A stretch of DNA of 64,000 bases, from the NCBI RefSeq assembly GCF_017305435.1, contig NZ_JAFKIP010000002.1, forward strand, positions 62,001-126,000, in the 5' to 3' direction. A program made the translations under genes and the position numbers. Positions 2,319 to 29,592 of this stretch are shown piece by piece. This DNA comes from Microbacterium sp. (lineage in GTDB: Bacteria > Actinomycetota > Actinomycetes > Actinomycetales > Microbacteriaceae). How positions within the stretch are numbered: position 1 is the stretch's first letter; every line of letters starts with the position of its first letter. The notes under the pieces are model-generated. The model was not told the origin of the DNA, did no database searches, and was given only the letters and a program-made list of their open reading frames with translations.

Positions 2319-3914
2319 ATGCTCCACACCGCACCCGCCGCCGCGACCGACACGATCGTCGTCGGCGCACGCCCGCTGACGCCCGCCGAGGTCGTCGCCG
2401 TCGCCCGTCGCGGCGCCCGCGTCGAGCTCGCCGCCGACGCGAGGGCGCGCGTCGCGGCATCCCGCGCCCTCATCGAGCGCCTCGCCGACGACCCCGAGCC
2501 GCACTACGGCATCTCGACCGGGTTCGGCGCGCTCGCGACGACCTTCATCGCGCCCGAGCGTCGCCGCCAGCTGCAGGCATCGCTCATCCGGTCGCACGCC
2601 GCGGGCACCGGCGCCGAGGTCGAGCGGGAGGTCGTACGGGCCCTCATGCTGCTGCGGCTGCAGACCCTCGTGACGGGGCACACCGGCGTCCGCCCCGTCG
2701 TGGTGGACACGTACGCGGCGATGCTCGACGCGGGCATCACGCCGATCGTGCGCGAGTACGGGTCGCTCGGCTGCTCGGGTGACCTCGCGCCGCTGTCGCA
2801 CGTCGCCCTCGCCGCGCTCGGCGAGGGGCGTGTGCGCACCGCGGATGGCACGGAGGCGGATGCCGGAGACGCCCTTTCCGCTGTCGGCATCGCGCCGCTC
2901 GTGCTCGAGGAGAAGGAGGGGCTCGCCCTCATCAACGGCACCGACGGCATGCTCGGGATGCTGCTCCTCGCCCTCGACGACCTCGGCGCCCTCCTCGACA
3001 CCGCCGACGTCGCCGCGGCGCTCTCGGTCGAAAGCCAGCTCGGCACGGATGCCGTGTTCGCGGCCGACCTCATGGCGCTGCGTCCGCAGGTCGGTCAAGC
3101 CGCGTCCGCCGCCCGGCTGCGCGGGCTCCTCGCCGGCTCGGAGATCATGGCGAGCCACCGCGACCCGGCCGTGTGCACGCGCGTGCAGGACGCCTACTCG
3201 CTGCGCTGCTCGCCACAGGTGCACGGCGCTGCCCGCGACACCGTCGATCACGCGACGCACGTGGCGTCGCGCGAACTCGCGTCGGCGGTCGACAACCCCG
3301 TCGTGACCTCGGACGGGCGCGTCGAGTCGAACGGGAACTTCCACGGTGCGCCGGTCGCGTACGTCCTCGACTTCCTCGCGATCGCGGTCGCCGACGTGGC
3401 ATCCCTGTCGGAGCGCCGCACCGACCGTGCGCTCGACCGCACCCGCAGCAACGGCCTGCCGCCCTTCCTCGCCGACGAGGTCGGGGTGGATTCGGGGCTC
3501 ATGATCGCGCAGTACGCCGCGGCGGGCATCGTCTCCGAGCTGAAGCGGCTCGCGGTGCCCGCGTCGGTCGACTCGATCCCCTCGTCGGCGATGCAGGAGG
3601 ATCACGTCTCGATGGGGTGGGCCGCCGCGCGCAAGCTCCGCCGCGGGATCGACGGCCTCGCGCGCGTCCTCGCGATCGAGATCGTCACGGGATGCCGCGC
3701 CCTCGACCTGCGCGCCCCCCTCGAGCCCGCCCCGGCCACCGGTGCGGTGCGCGATCTCGTCCGGAGGGCGGGTGTCGCCGGCCCCGGCCCCGACCGCTTC
3801 GTCAGCCCGGACCTCGAGACCGTGACCGAGCTCGTCCTTTCGGGCGAGATCGCGGGCGCGGTCGCGCGTGCCGCAGCATCCGTCACCGACACCACCGAAG
3901 GAGGACGCGCATGA
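2319..3914 (+). CDS. hutH: histidine ammonia-lyase
   Basis: 531 aa. Catalyses the first step of histidine catabolism, L-histidine to urocanate plus ammonia, in the cytoplasm. The segment that forms the MIO electrophile reads [14 protein letters not shown], with Cys152-Ser153-Gly154 in place of the commoner Ala-Ser-Gly. YGISTGFG near the N-terminus and [10 protein letters not shown] near residue 425 are further family signatures. Length is normal for HutH. First gene of hutHUI, with its stop overlapping the hutU start (ATGA). No strong ribosome site precedes the ATG at 2319. Function is secure from motifs and from the following genes. Confidence 0.96.
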
Positions 3915-5575
3915 GAGAGCCCGTCCGCGCACCCCGCGGCGCAGAGCGCACCGCGAAGAGCTGGGGCGCCGAAGCCGCCAAGCGCATGCTCATGAACAAC
4001 CTCGACCCCGAGGTCGCCGAGCATCCCGAAGACCTCGTCGTCTACGGCGGCACGGGCCGCGCGGCGCGCTCGTGGGAGGCGTACGACGCGATCGTGCGGA
4101 CGCTCGACGATCTCGAACCGGACGAGACGCTGCTCGTGCAGTCCGGCAAGCCCGTCGGCGTCTTCCGAACGCACGAATGGGCGCCGCGCGTGCTCATCGC
4201 GAACTCCAACCTCGTCGGCGACTGGGCGACGTGGCCCGAGTTCCGCCGGCTGGAGGACCTGGGCCTCACGATGTACGGCCAGATGACCGCCGGATCATGG
4301 ATCTACATCGGCACCCAGGGCATCCTGCAGGGGACGTACGAGACCTTCGCCGCCGTCGCGCGCTCGCTCGGGCGGGACAGCCTCGCCGGGACGCTCACCC
4401 TCACGGCGGGCGCGGGCGGCATGGGTGGCGCTCAGCCGCTCGCGGTGACCCTCAATGACGGCGTCGTGCTCATCGTCGACGTCGACGAGTCCCGCCTGCA
4501 GCGCCGTGTCGCCCACGGCTACCTCGACGAGTACACGACGGATCTCGACGCCGCCGTCCGGCGCGTCGGTGGGGCGAAGGTCGCGGGCGAGGCGCTGAGC
4601 GTCGGGGTCGTCGGCAACGCCGCCGAGGTCTTCCCGGAGCTCCTGCGCCGCCACCGAGCCGGCGAGATCGACGTCGACGTCGTCACCGACCAGACGAGCG
4701 CGCACGACCCGCTCGCCTACCTCCCGATGGGCATTCCGCTCGCGGAATGGAAGGATGCCGCGGCATCCGACCCGGCGTCGTTCACCGACCGGGCGCGGGC
4801 GTCGATGGCGGCCCACGTCGCCGCGATGGTCGGGTTCCAGGACGCGGGTGCGGCGGTGTTCGACTACGGCAACTCGATCCGGCGGGAGGCTGAGCTCGGC
4901 GGCTTCGAGCGGGCTTTCGCGTTCCCGGGCTTCGTGCCGGCGTACATCCGGCCGCAGTTCGAGGAGGGACGCGGACCGTTCCGCTGGGTCGCGCTGTCGG
5001 GAGACCCCGCGGACATCGCGAAGACCGACCGCGCCGTGATGGACCTGTTCCCGCAGGATGCCGCGCTGCACCGCTGGCTGACGCGGGCGGGCGAGACCGT
5101 GCACTTCGAGGGGCTGCCCGCGCGCATCTGCTGGCTCGGCTACAAGGAACGTCACCTCGCGGGCCTGCGCTTCAACGAGATGGTCGCGTCGGGCGAGCTG
5201 GCCGGGCCGATCGTCATCGGTCGGGATCACCTCGACTCGGGATCGGTCGCGTCGCCCTACCGCGAGACCGAGGCGATGGCCGACGGCTCCGACGCGATCG
5301 CCGACTGGCCGCTGCTCAACGCGCTGCTGAACACGGCGTCGGGGGCGTCGTGGGTGTCGATCCACCACGGCGGCGGCGTCGGCATCGGCCGCTCGATCCA
5401 CGCGGGCCAGGTCACGGTCGCCGATGGCACCGCGCTCGCCGCAGAGAAGATCGAACGCGTCCTCACGAACGACCCCGGCACGGGTGTCATGCGGCACGTG
5501 GATGCCGGCTACCCGCGCGCCCGCGAGGTCGCGCGTGAGCGCGGCCTGACGATCCCGATGCTGGATCAGCCGTGA
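3911..5575 (+). CDS. hutU: urocanate hydratase (urocanase)
   Basis: 554 aa. Converts urocanate to 4-imidazolone-5-propionate using tightly bound NAD+. The ATG at 3911 overlaps the hutH stop by four bases, and from there the protein begins [18 protein letters not shown]; the frame is open further upstream, but that part lies inside hutH. Family signatures: [58 protein letters not shown] (nucleotide loop) and [20 protein letters not shown]. Length matches the usual 550-560 residues. Its end overlaps the hutI start as GTGA, so the three genes are translationally coupled. Confidence 0.97.
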
Positions 5576-6816
5576 CGAGCCTCCTGATCACCGGCATCGG
5601 TGAGCTGACGACGAACGTCGTCGGCGCGGGCGACGACCCCGCCGACCCGACAGGCCTCATCCGGGGCGCCGCCCTCCGGATCGAGGGCGGTCGCGTCGCG
5701 TGGGTCGGGCCGGCCGACCCCCGCGAGAGAACAAGCCACCGCCGAGGCGACGGGTATCACCCGCACTCTCGGCGACCCACTGTTCTCTCGCGGGAGGGGG
5801 CGGATGTCGTCGATGTCGGGGGACGGGCGGTGATCCCCGGGTTCGTCGACAGCCATACGCACCTCGTGTTCGGCGGCGATCGCGCCGACGAGTTCGAGGC
5901 GCGGATGGCCGGGGTGTCGTATGCCGCGGGCGGCATCCGTCGCACCGTCGCCGCGACGCGTGCGGCGACCGACGACGAGCTGCGCGCGCGGCTGGCCGGA
6001 TTCGTCGCCGAGCTGCACGCGCAGGGCACGACGACGTTCGAGGTGAAGACGGGATACGACCTGACCGTGGCGGGAGAGGCACGTCTCGCGCGGCTCGCAG
6101 CGGAGGTCACGGACGAGGTCACGTTCCTCGGCGCGCACGTCGTTCCTGCAGAGTACGCGCACGACCGCGACGCGTACGTCGACCTCGTCTGCGGCCCCAT
6201 GCTCACAGCCGCTCTGCCGCACGCGCGCTGGATCGACGTGTTCTGCGAGACCGGGGCGTTCACGCCGGAGGAGACGCGCCGCATCCTCCTCGCCGGCATC
6301 GAGGCGGGCCTTCGTCCGCGGCTGCACGGCAACCAGCTCGGCTACGGCGCGGGCGCGCAGCTCGCCGTCGACCTCGACATCCGATCGATCGACCACTGCA
6401 CCTACCTCACCGACGCGGACGTCGCGGCGCTCGCCGCGAGCGACGTCGTCGCGACGCTGCTGCCGGGGGTCGAGTTCTCCACGCGGCATCCCTACCCCGA
6501 CGCGCGCCGTCTGATCGGCGCGGGCGTGACGGTCGCGCTCGCGAGCGACTGCAATCCCGGCTCGAGCTTCACGAGCTCGATGCCGCTCGTGATCGCCCTC
6601 GCGGTGCGCGAGATGGGCATGACCGTCGCCGAGGCCGTGTGGGCCGCGACGGCCGGCGGGGCGCGAGCGCTCGCCCGCGATGACGTCGGGCAGCTCGGCG
6701 TGGGCGCACGGGCCGACGTCGTCGTCCTCGATGCGCCGTCCCGCAGCCACCTCGCGTACCGACCTGGAGTGCCGCTCGTGCACGCGGTCTACTGCGAGGG
6801 GATGCCGCTCGGCTGA
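5572..6816 (+). CDS. hutI: imidazolonepropionase with an in-frame palindromic insert
   Basis: 414 aa from the GTG at 5572 (GTGA overlap with hutU). Opens the imidazolone ring to give N-formimino-L-glutamate. It is a metal amidohydrolase: metal ligands in [17 protein letters not shown], further histidines in [10 protein letters not shown] and HGNQLGYG, and the aspartate in ASDCNPGSS. Between [11 protein letters not shown] (residues about 40-50) and [13 protein letters not shown] it carries about 25 extra Arg/Ser/His-rich residues. These are encoded exactly by a 75-bp nested inverted repeat (5720-5794). The insert precedes the barrel, probably in a surface loop of the small beta-domain, so activity may survive. 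Last gene of hutHUI. Confidence 0.95.
5720..5794. repeat. 75-bp nested inverted repeat inside hutI
   Basis: Outer arms are a perfect 14-bp inverted repeat, CCCGCGAGAGAACA at 5720-5733 and its complement at 5781-5794. Going inward there are 7 unpaired bases on each side, then GCCGAG (5741-5746) with CTCGGC (5768-5773), 4 unpaired bases on each side, then CGGGT (5751-5755) with ACCCG (5759-5763) around a 3-base loop. The layout is fully symmetric. The length is exactly 25 codons and keeps the hutI frame open. This looks like a small mobile palindromic element inserted into a gene rather than ordinary coding drift. Confidence 0.8.
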
Positions 6817-29538: not shown

Positions 29539-29592
29539 ATACGAGGAGAAGGGCGGTGGATGCCGAGGCATCCACCGCCCTTCTCCTCGTAT
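29539..29592. terminator. perfect 25-bp bidirectional terminator
   Basis: Arms at 29539-29563 and 29568-29592 are exact complements over 25 bp with a CGAG tetraloop. The left arm starts directly after the transporter stop, and the right arm ends 10 bases before the convergent MFS stop. A-rich and T-rich patches in the lower stem serve both directions. Confidence 0.88.

Follow-up and report, generated by a model that had tools for sequence, protein, structure and literature searches.

A nested palindrome in hutI of Microbacterium, probably a copy of a small dispersed repeat family

The hutI Locus and Its Nested Palindrome

The window, that is, the whole 64,000 nt stretch of DNA under analysis, belongs to a Microbacterium sp. 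genome represented by a 3.50 Mb assembly of 10 contigs, in which it occupies positions 62001-126000 of contig C6 (G000; G numbers denote genomes, G000 being the window's own, and L numbers denote loci), and its nearest HutI relatives are mostly Microbacterium. Two called genes precede hutI on the same strand and, from their sequences and place, we take them to be hutH and hutU, respectively. The features of the locus are:

2319..3914, plus strand: gene upstream of, and codirectional with, hutI
3911..5575, plus strand: upstream gene overlapping hutI
5572..6816, plus strand: hutI, open reading frame for imidazolonepropionase, 414 aa (TIGR01224 hutI, 362.9 bits against a cut-off of 298.15)
5719..5796, plus strand: HutI codons 50-75, 26 residues spanning the element (open reading frame, structure model)
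5720..5794, no strand: nested palindrome, 75 bp, within the limits of the first-pass annotation (checked position by position; fold test)
5721..5793, no strand: 73-bp element of the GAA dialect, the unit common to copies aligned without gaps (alignments)
5721..5733, plus strand: outer left arm with the motif CGAGA-GAA-CA at 5724-5733 (alignment, covariation)
5740..5755, plus strand: inner left arm, comprising the second unit CGAGGCGAC (5743-5751, 19 nt past the first unit) and the central stem (alignment, covariation)
5759..5774, minus strand: inner right arm (alignment, covariation)
5781..5793, minus strand: outer right arm, with the CGAGA-GAA-CA motif on the opposite strand (alignment, covariation)

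All positions of the stems and loop described in the first-pass annotation were confirmed. The outer arms are CCCGCGAGAGAACA (5720-5733) and TGTTCTCTCGCGGG (5781-5794), the inner 7-bp stem is formed by 5740-5746 and 5768-5774, and the center consists of a 5-bp stem (5751-5755/5759-5763) closed by a 3-base loop. When a 116-nt stretch carrying the palindrome was folded as DNA, the predicted energy was -37 kcal/mol, whereas shuffled sequences averaged -25.5 (z -4.4), and 0/200 shuffles were as stable. The hutI frame passes through the element, its entry being read as CGC GAG AGA ACA. The annotation had also credited the insert with exactly 25 extra residues; 75 bp do correspond to 25 codons, but the net gain cannot be fixed exactly, as the length of this loop ranges between 20 and 93 aa among relatives, and the length of the element itself is revised here from 75 to 73 bp, the unit common to all aligned copies.

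An architecture scorer gave the hutI palindrome 60 of a possible 61, whereas the best scores from null sequences were 41.6 (three 64-kb Markov sequences) and 40.8 (1.23 Mb of randomized sequence, with no match at ≥44 and thus none at the strict score). A palindrome arising by chance in ordinary loop sequence could draw on the hypervariable length of this loop, yet with nine other copies present in this genome its probability is practically nil, and a chance origin is excluded.

Copies Elsewhere in the Same Genome

A covariance model search found 10 copies in the genome, including that in hutI, a count that is a lower bound with few candidates scored; BLAST with an 86-base query recovered four of the others at full length. 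Five copies are of the GAA type and align without gaps across 73 nt, and the remaining five carry the triplets CTG, CTT, CCG and, once, CAG. The GAA copies share only 77-82% identity with the hutI copy and yet retain the motif, which is not predicted by a plain recent burst. None of the nine copies outside hutI lies within a called gene, although two overlap gene ends (by 37 and 6 nt), and their neighbors include pgi, malQ, an O-acetylhomoserine sulfhydrylase gene with metX, and glyA with folD. An arm-to-arm pattern allowing a gap of 10-40 nt gave 0 matches in this genome, because the motifs stand 47 nt apart.

Architecture, Covariation and Spread of the Family

Thirty-eight copies from several genomes could be aligned without gaps across 73 columns. 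Each arm of this core contains two 19-nt units (CGAGA-NNN-C-N10), and the arms are inverted about a 24-nt center. CGAGA and its partners are near-invariant, while columns 9-11 and 63-65 covary, with changes on both sides in 24/35 pairs (0/500 shuffles as high). The covariation score was 0.266 and fell to ≤0.116 after the partners were slid by 1-3 columns; the input copies had been selected by a scorer that rewards pairing, which favors structure, a bias limited by these slid controls and by the Markov nulls. The stem does not extend measurably into the flanks, pairing at positions 1-10 being near expectation, and the Rfam search returned three weak matches, the best reaching 19.8 bits where the gathering score is 71.

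The covariance model matched at E ≤ 0.01 in 48/50 Microbacterium genomes (those of 50 of the 80 hutI loci described below); both strands are counted, so that copies number about half of the matches, and any genome with just a few weak matches is an uncertain case. By comparison, a BLAST search using the hutI copy of the window hit only 6/59 genomes of the genus at E ≤ 0.001, one of them through 30 nt alone, because the sequence dialects differ. In wider searches with the model, matches were found in 17/249 genomes of the family at E ≤ 1e-4, distributed over 12/85 genera, and in 6/296 genomes of the class at E ≤ 1e-6, all of them Microbacterium (1/114 genera), both counts being lower bounds with few candidates scored per genome.

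Longer unit arrays are rare, and the clear ones are in G013, where three loci have arms expanded at 19-nt steps (L335, 5+2 units; L336, 3+4; L337, 3+2). Extra 19-nt units occurred in 3/195 copies, which does not exceed the frequency at some control spacings, and two loci from other genera (L348 and L349) retain the 19-nt step by eye. At L352 (G584), the whole element and its flank are present in three tandem copies with a period of about 132 nt.

Genomic Positions of the Copies

From 36 genomes (two of another genus), 196 distinct copies were sampled, best-scoring first and so not exhaustively, and 195 had enough flank to be placed. Using script-made gene calls, under which one hutI copy (L088) came out as intergenic, 92 copies were assigned to codirectional spacers, 68 to convergent and five to divergent spacers, one to an edge, 15 to hutI and 14 to other genes. 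As background, these loci contain in total 317 codirectional, 125 convergent and 46 divergent pairs of neighboring called genes. The 165 copies between two called genes typically lie shortly past a stop codon, and 160 of them are in convergent or codirectional spacers; the distance from a stop codon to the facing copy has a median of 40.5 nt, and 159/228 such distances are within 60 nt. The hutI copies were mostly fetched for being in hutI, so a less biased in-gene share is 14/180. The glyA-folD spacer is occupied in two species and the 3' side of gcvP in three (copies outside the window's own genome, and gcvP, were named by eye).

This distribution gives weight to an alternative in which the palindromes are mainly functional sites of the host maintained by selection, either as 3' RNA hairpins, active in both directions, which terminate or protect transcripts, or as arrayed binding sites of a DNA-binding protein, with the in-gene copies being incidental. 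The scarcity of divergent spacers and the proximity to stop codons fit it, as do the shared glyA-folD and gcvP positions, the retention of motif positions while the remainder has diverged, the abundant changes on both sides of the stem, and the single double, silent change that separates the outer arms of six orthologous hutI inserts (see below). However, the six bases before a copy are C-rich and the six after it G-rich, with no T-tract; copies lie within open frames such as hutI and mazG, which speaks against a terminator role; presence is scattered among close relatives; and the same 3' distribution is shared by mobile REP-like repeats (PMC3733652). We consider a host-site origin possible but rather doubtful, while the mobile-repeat reading that we prefer is compatible with selection on intergenic copies for a role as RNA hairpins or protein sites.

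Two further observations concern intergenic repeats. Past gcvP (a by-eye name) there are two copies in each of three species (L002, L171 and L177), each pair in the dialect of its genome (GAA, ATC and CTG). At 29539-29592 of the window, a perfect 26-bp inverted repeat with a 2-nt center lies between convergent genes; it is terminator-like and has partial matches elsewhere in the genome.

Copies Within Other Genes

Besides hutI, nine kinds of gene host copies through which the frame stays open, accounting for 14/195 sampled copies. One member of each kind was tested against Pfam and further members were assigned by eye:

MazG (G013, G102, G060): copy outside or between Pfam domains
DNA methylase (G104 and G073, both at residue 68): copy within the domain span
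circularly permuted ATP-grasp protein (G060, G076, G077): copy in the C-terminal tail, outside or between Pfam domains
MFS sugar transporter: in-gene copy, frame runs through
LuxR-type response regulator: copy between the receiver and GerE domains
triosephosphate isomerase: copy in the tail, outside or between Pfam domains
lactonase: in-gene copy, frame runs through
carboxyltransferase fusion: copy between its two domains
PF00144 serine hydrolase of another genus: copy within the domain span

The copy is thus outside or between Pfam domains in 5/9 host kinds (MazG, ATP-grasp, regulator, isomerase and carboxyltransferase). In-gene status required an open frame through the copy, so that the in-frame condition is partly met by construction and frame-breaking insertions are missed. 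All 29 in-gene copies, counting those in hutI, are read at codon offset 1 or 2 and never at 0, while offset 0 is open in 288/392 copy-strands; many of the 29 are orthologous, making the effective number smaller. In the mazG gene of M. timonense (L317, at about 1362), the right arm is altered and the MazG frame stops running through the copy, reflecting either a damaged gene or an assembly error.

The HutI Loop among Relatives

The best 80 of 321 HutI relatives were kept for comparison. The element lies in a loop between a conserved WVG-like motif and PGFVDSHTH, which measures 20-93 aa in the 79/81 sequences (the window and 80 relatives) in which it could be delimited. At the strict score, the palindrome is present in the hutI loop of 15/80 relatives, and these 80 loci contain no strict match elsewhere. 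L102 (43.8) and L091 (42.4) fall just below the strict score, and L099 has a shortened copy (score 35). The pattern that would have undermined the first-pass reading, an insert shared by most orthologues with no other copies of the element, is therefore not the one found.

On a tree of HutI sequences from which the loop was left out, presence requires 10 label changes for the strict set and 12 for a looser set (18 rows including the window), and sister rows differ, with L070 and L082 carrying the element and their respective sisters L084 and L094 lacking it. As 41/78 inner branches are weakly supported, the tree leaves the number of insertions unfixed. A single ancestral insertion into hutI, inherited vertically with many losses and with arms drifting in concert, finds some backing here: 14 of the 15 called hutI copies share codon offset 1, apparent degenerate relics are seen by eye in the loops of L071, L086 and L091, one double change has occurred in place, and when compared with six long decayed loops the presence label (looser set) is no more clustered than in shuffles (194/500 as low). 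Set against it are the M. paulum copy (L054), which has codon offset 2, the distance between element and conserved flank, which varies between species, a second, weaker palindrome (score 39) in M. flavescens (L103) that resembles the L071 loop by eye, the ten label changes, and the tendency of the arm triplet to track the genome (next section). We regard descent from one insertion as improbable.

In an AlphaFold model of HutI (36 sequences; pLDDT 84.6, pTM 0.87), residues 53-74 have pLDDT <50 and lie between strands 41-47 and 77-89, and local alignments with four solved HutI sequences start only at query residue 64, 64, 75 or 80. The residues added to HutI most likely form a hydrophilic loop extension that is tolerated and has no function of its own.

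Other repeats were noticed at the same position. In L058 (2136-2264), a palindrome of another type (TTTCGTCTCGCTTCGCTCGCTCAACGACC...) occupies the loop by eye, and the loops of L106 and L107 contain stretches resembling CTCGACAGGCTCGGGGACC or TTCGACGGGCTCAGGGACC, also by eye. HutI of Glaciibacter flavus (L127, 2130-2291) has a poly-Ser tract there that derives from TCATCC repeats. The HutI loop looks like a sink for repeats. One relative, L063, is a short contig labelled Stenotrophomonas maltophilia whose hutI groups with Microbacterium, a probable case of contamination.

Genome-Specific Arm Triplets

The NNN triplet of the sampled arms tends to be a genome-specific dialect. It is GAA in 24/24 arms of G013 and 34/34 of G090, CTT in 20/24 of G104 (the rest being CTC), CAC and AAC in G059, CGA in 9/18 of G071 and GTG in 12/14 of G073. 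Copies in hutI and mazG tend to follow it. The test for hutI covered 13 genomes in which the hutI copy was scored and two or more further copies were available; the low-scoring hutI copies of G074 and G075 did not enter it. On average, the hutI triplets accounted for 0.496 of the remaining arms in their own genome, compared with 0.121 after genomes were shuffled (1/10,000). For mazG the values were 0.460 and 0.127 (36/10,000; seven genomes), both arms agreeing with the dialect in G061, G074 and G013, one arm in G060 and G071, and neither in G095 and G092, while G102 had no other sampled copy for comparison. M. oleivorans P10 (G063) is a counter-case, with CAG in hutI and CTG in 11/12 other arms, and G064 and G065, which lie outside the test with one other copy each, show a similar mismatch. 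A single hutI arm has a triplet seen in other copies in G062 and G073, and in G060 the right-arm triplet is rare in the genome.

Six hutI inserts of the oleivorans clade are plainly orthologous, and their outer arms carry CAG in four cases and CTG in two (L069 and L072), on both sides. The two differences are silent and amount to one double change. Elsewhere in the genomes sampled for this clade, CTG is the usual triplet. At L065 a single outer base is left unpaired, and variation among these inserts is greater in the spacer and the inner pairs. The triplet can therefore change in place, and since an orthologous copy can differ in triplet between strains, a match to the dialect is by itself no proof of fresh insertion.

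A further possibility, which we offer tentatively, is that a trans-acting DNA- or RNA-binding factor reads the 19-nt CGAGA-NNN-C units, and that when its NNN preference shifts in a lineage, sites throughout the genome follow, including those in hutI and mazG. If so, protein loops across the genus would be changing together under the control of a non-coding DNA signal, with each species using its own dialect.

Search for a Mobilizing Factor

The family shares several traits with REP/BIME elements mobilized by RAYT transposases, being palindromic, dispersed, located 3' of genes and species-specific in sequence. However, no RAYT or Y1_Tnp domain (PF01797) was detected in 16 genomes, although the control search was positive in 5/14, the end tag GTAG/CGTC is missing, and the element is 73 bp compared with the 20-40 bp of the REP definition in PMC3733652. 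A RAYT-mobilized origin is very improbable.

A Mu/TniA-type domain (PF09299) was found in only 3/16 genomes and not in the window's own, and in 0/14 controls, sensitivity being indicated by those three genomes alone. Target-site duplications of 2 to 7 nt were near chance over 195 copies (2 nt, 11 against 12.7 expected; 4 nt, 2 against 0.75), and old copies might have lost one. No near-identical, recent copies came to light. No parent element was apparent in G090, where 35/35 arm motifs belong to complete elements. Motifs outside complete elements were found in G000 (3/11) and G013 (some of 35), and those inspected were lone motifs or altered or extended elements; a backward control pattern gave 0 matches in G000, G013 and G090. 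A gene flanked by two copies was considered as a composite mobile unit and rejected, as both copies are present in M. hibisci and the space between them contains no called gene.

Origin of the hutI Insert

The copies are dispersed and of constant length, their arms covary and carry a genome-specific triplet, their presence in hutI is scattered, further copies lie in frame in nine other kinds of gene, and the HutI loop has a disordered appearance. Taken together, the insert in hutI is probably a copy of a small, non-autonomous palindromic repeat family of Microbacterium that resembles the RPEs of Rickettsia and lands in permissive loops. New copies would be inserted with the help of a trans-acting factor that reads the CGAGA-NNN-CA arms, and insertions that break needed genes would be lost by selection. 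Those that survive would then lie either shortly past a stop codon or, if the frame stays open, in protein linkers, loops and tails. On this model, hutI would have received the element more than once, and the lineage of the present strain would have received it as the GAA version.

The first-pass annotation had proposed a small, RPE-like palindromic element that jumped into a tolerated loop and kept the frame, and the comparisons above support this picture, the jump being deduced rather than observed. Beyond its reach were the genus-wide spread, the modular build, the genome-specific triplet, the mostly 3' location of copies, and the use of the same few protein loops across species.

Comparison with Known Systems

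In a review (PMC10969869), RPEs are described as palindromes of about 150 bp placed in frame in Rickettsia genes. The Microbacterium element is likened to them by features and not by sequence, both being palindromic, dispersed and, in many instances, in frame in unrelated protein genes according to that text. It is multi-copy, and it is in frame in hutI and nine other gene kinds, a trait that is partly by construction and has L317 as a counter-example. It differs from RPEs in its length (73 bp), its 19-nt units, its occurrence in a high-GC actinobacterial genus, its genome-specific triplet and its mostly 3' intergenic copies.

As described in PMC3733652, REP/BIME elements are short palindromes located 3' of genes in convergent or codirectional spacers, forming organism-specific families of which some members are intragenic; such cases occur in several species, and recB is affected at about the same site in two Xanthomonas. 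The placement of the Microbacterium copies (160/165) is that of REPs, but the 38-copy consensus lacks the GTAG/CGTC tag, the element is about twice the size and nested, with two direct units per arm, and no RAYT was found in 16 genomes. MITEs that give rise to in-frame fusions (ERIC, BOX and others, as listed in PMC10969869) are likewise non-autonomous inverted repeats near or in genes. Unlike these, the present element has no visible target-site duplication (195 copies), and no parent transposon with the same ends was found in G090. Searches of an open-access library turned up no description of this element, as judged by title or abstract start, and the word Microbacterium is absent from PMC3733652.

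The direct 19-nt units at inverted ends also recall transposons. The ends of Tn5090/Tn402-type elements contain arrayed 19-bp transposase sites, begin with 5'-TG and are associated with 5-bp duplications. In contrast, PF09299 is absent from 13/16 genomes, and neither 5'-TG ends nor 5-bp duplications are seen in the Microbacterium element.

In-frame palindromes are therefore an already known kind of insertion, reported chiefly from Rickettsia, and intragenic REPs occur in some other species (PMC10969869 and PMC3733652). What appears to be new, as far as we have seen, is the family itself and the host group that carries it, together with the modular construction from 19-nt units, a triplet specific to each genome, and the fact that the same loops are occupied repeatedly across a genus. 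With many sequenced and cultured species and shared insertion sites, Microbacterium should allow insertion, change of dialect and decay to be traced at one protein loop across dozens of species, and a mobilizing factor could be sought through its coevolution with the triplet. The family also bears on how small repeats lengthen the loops of bacterial proteins, and on the annotation of lineage-specific insertions.
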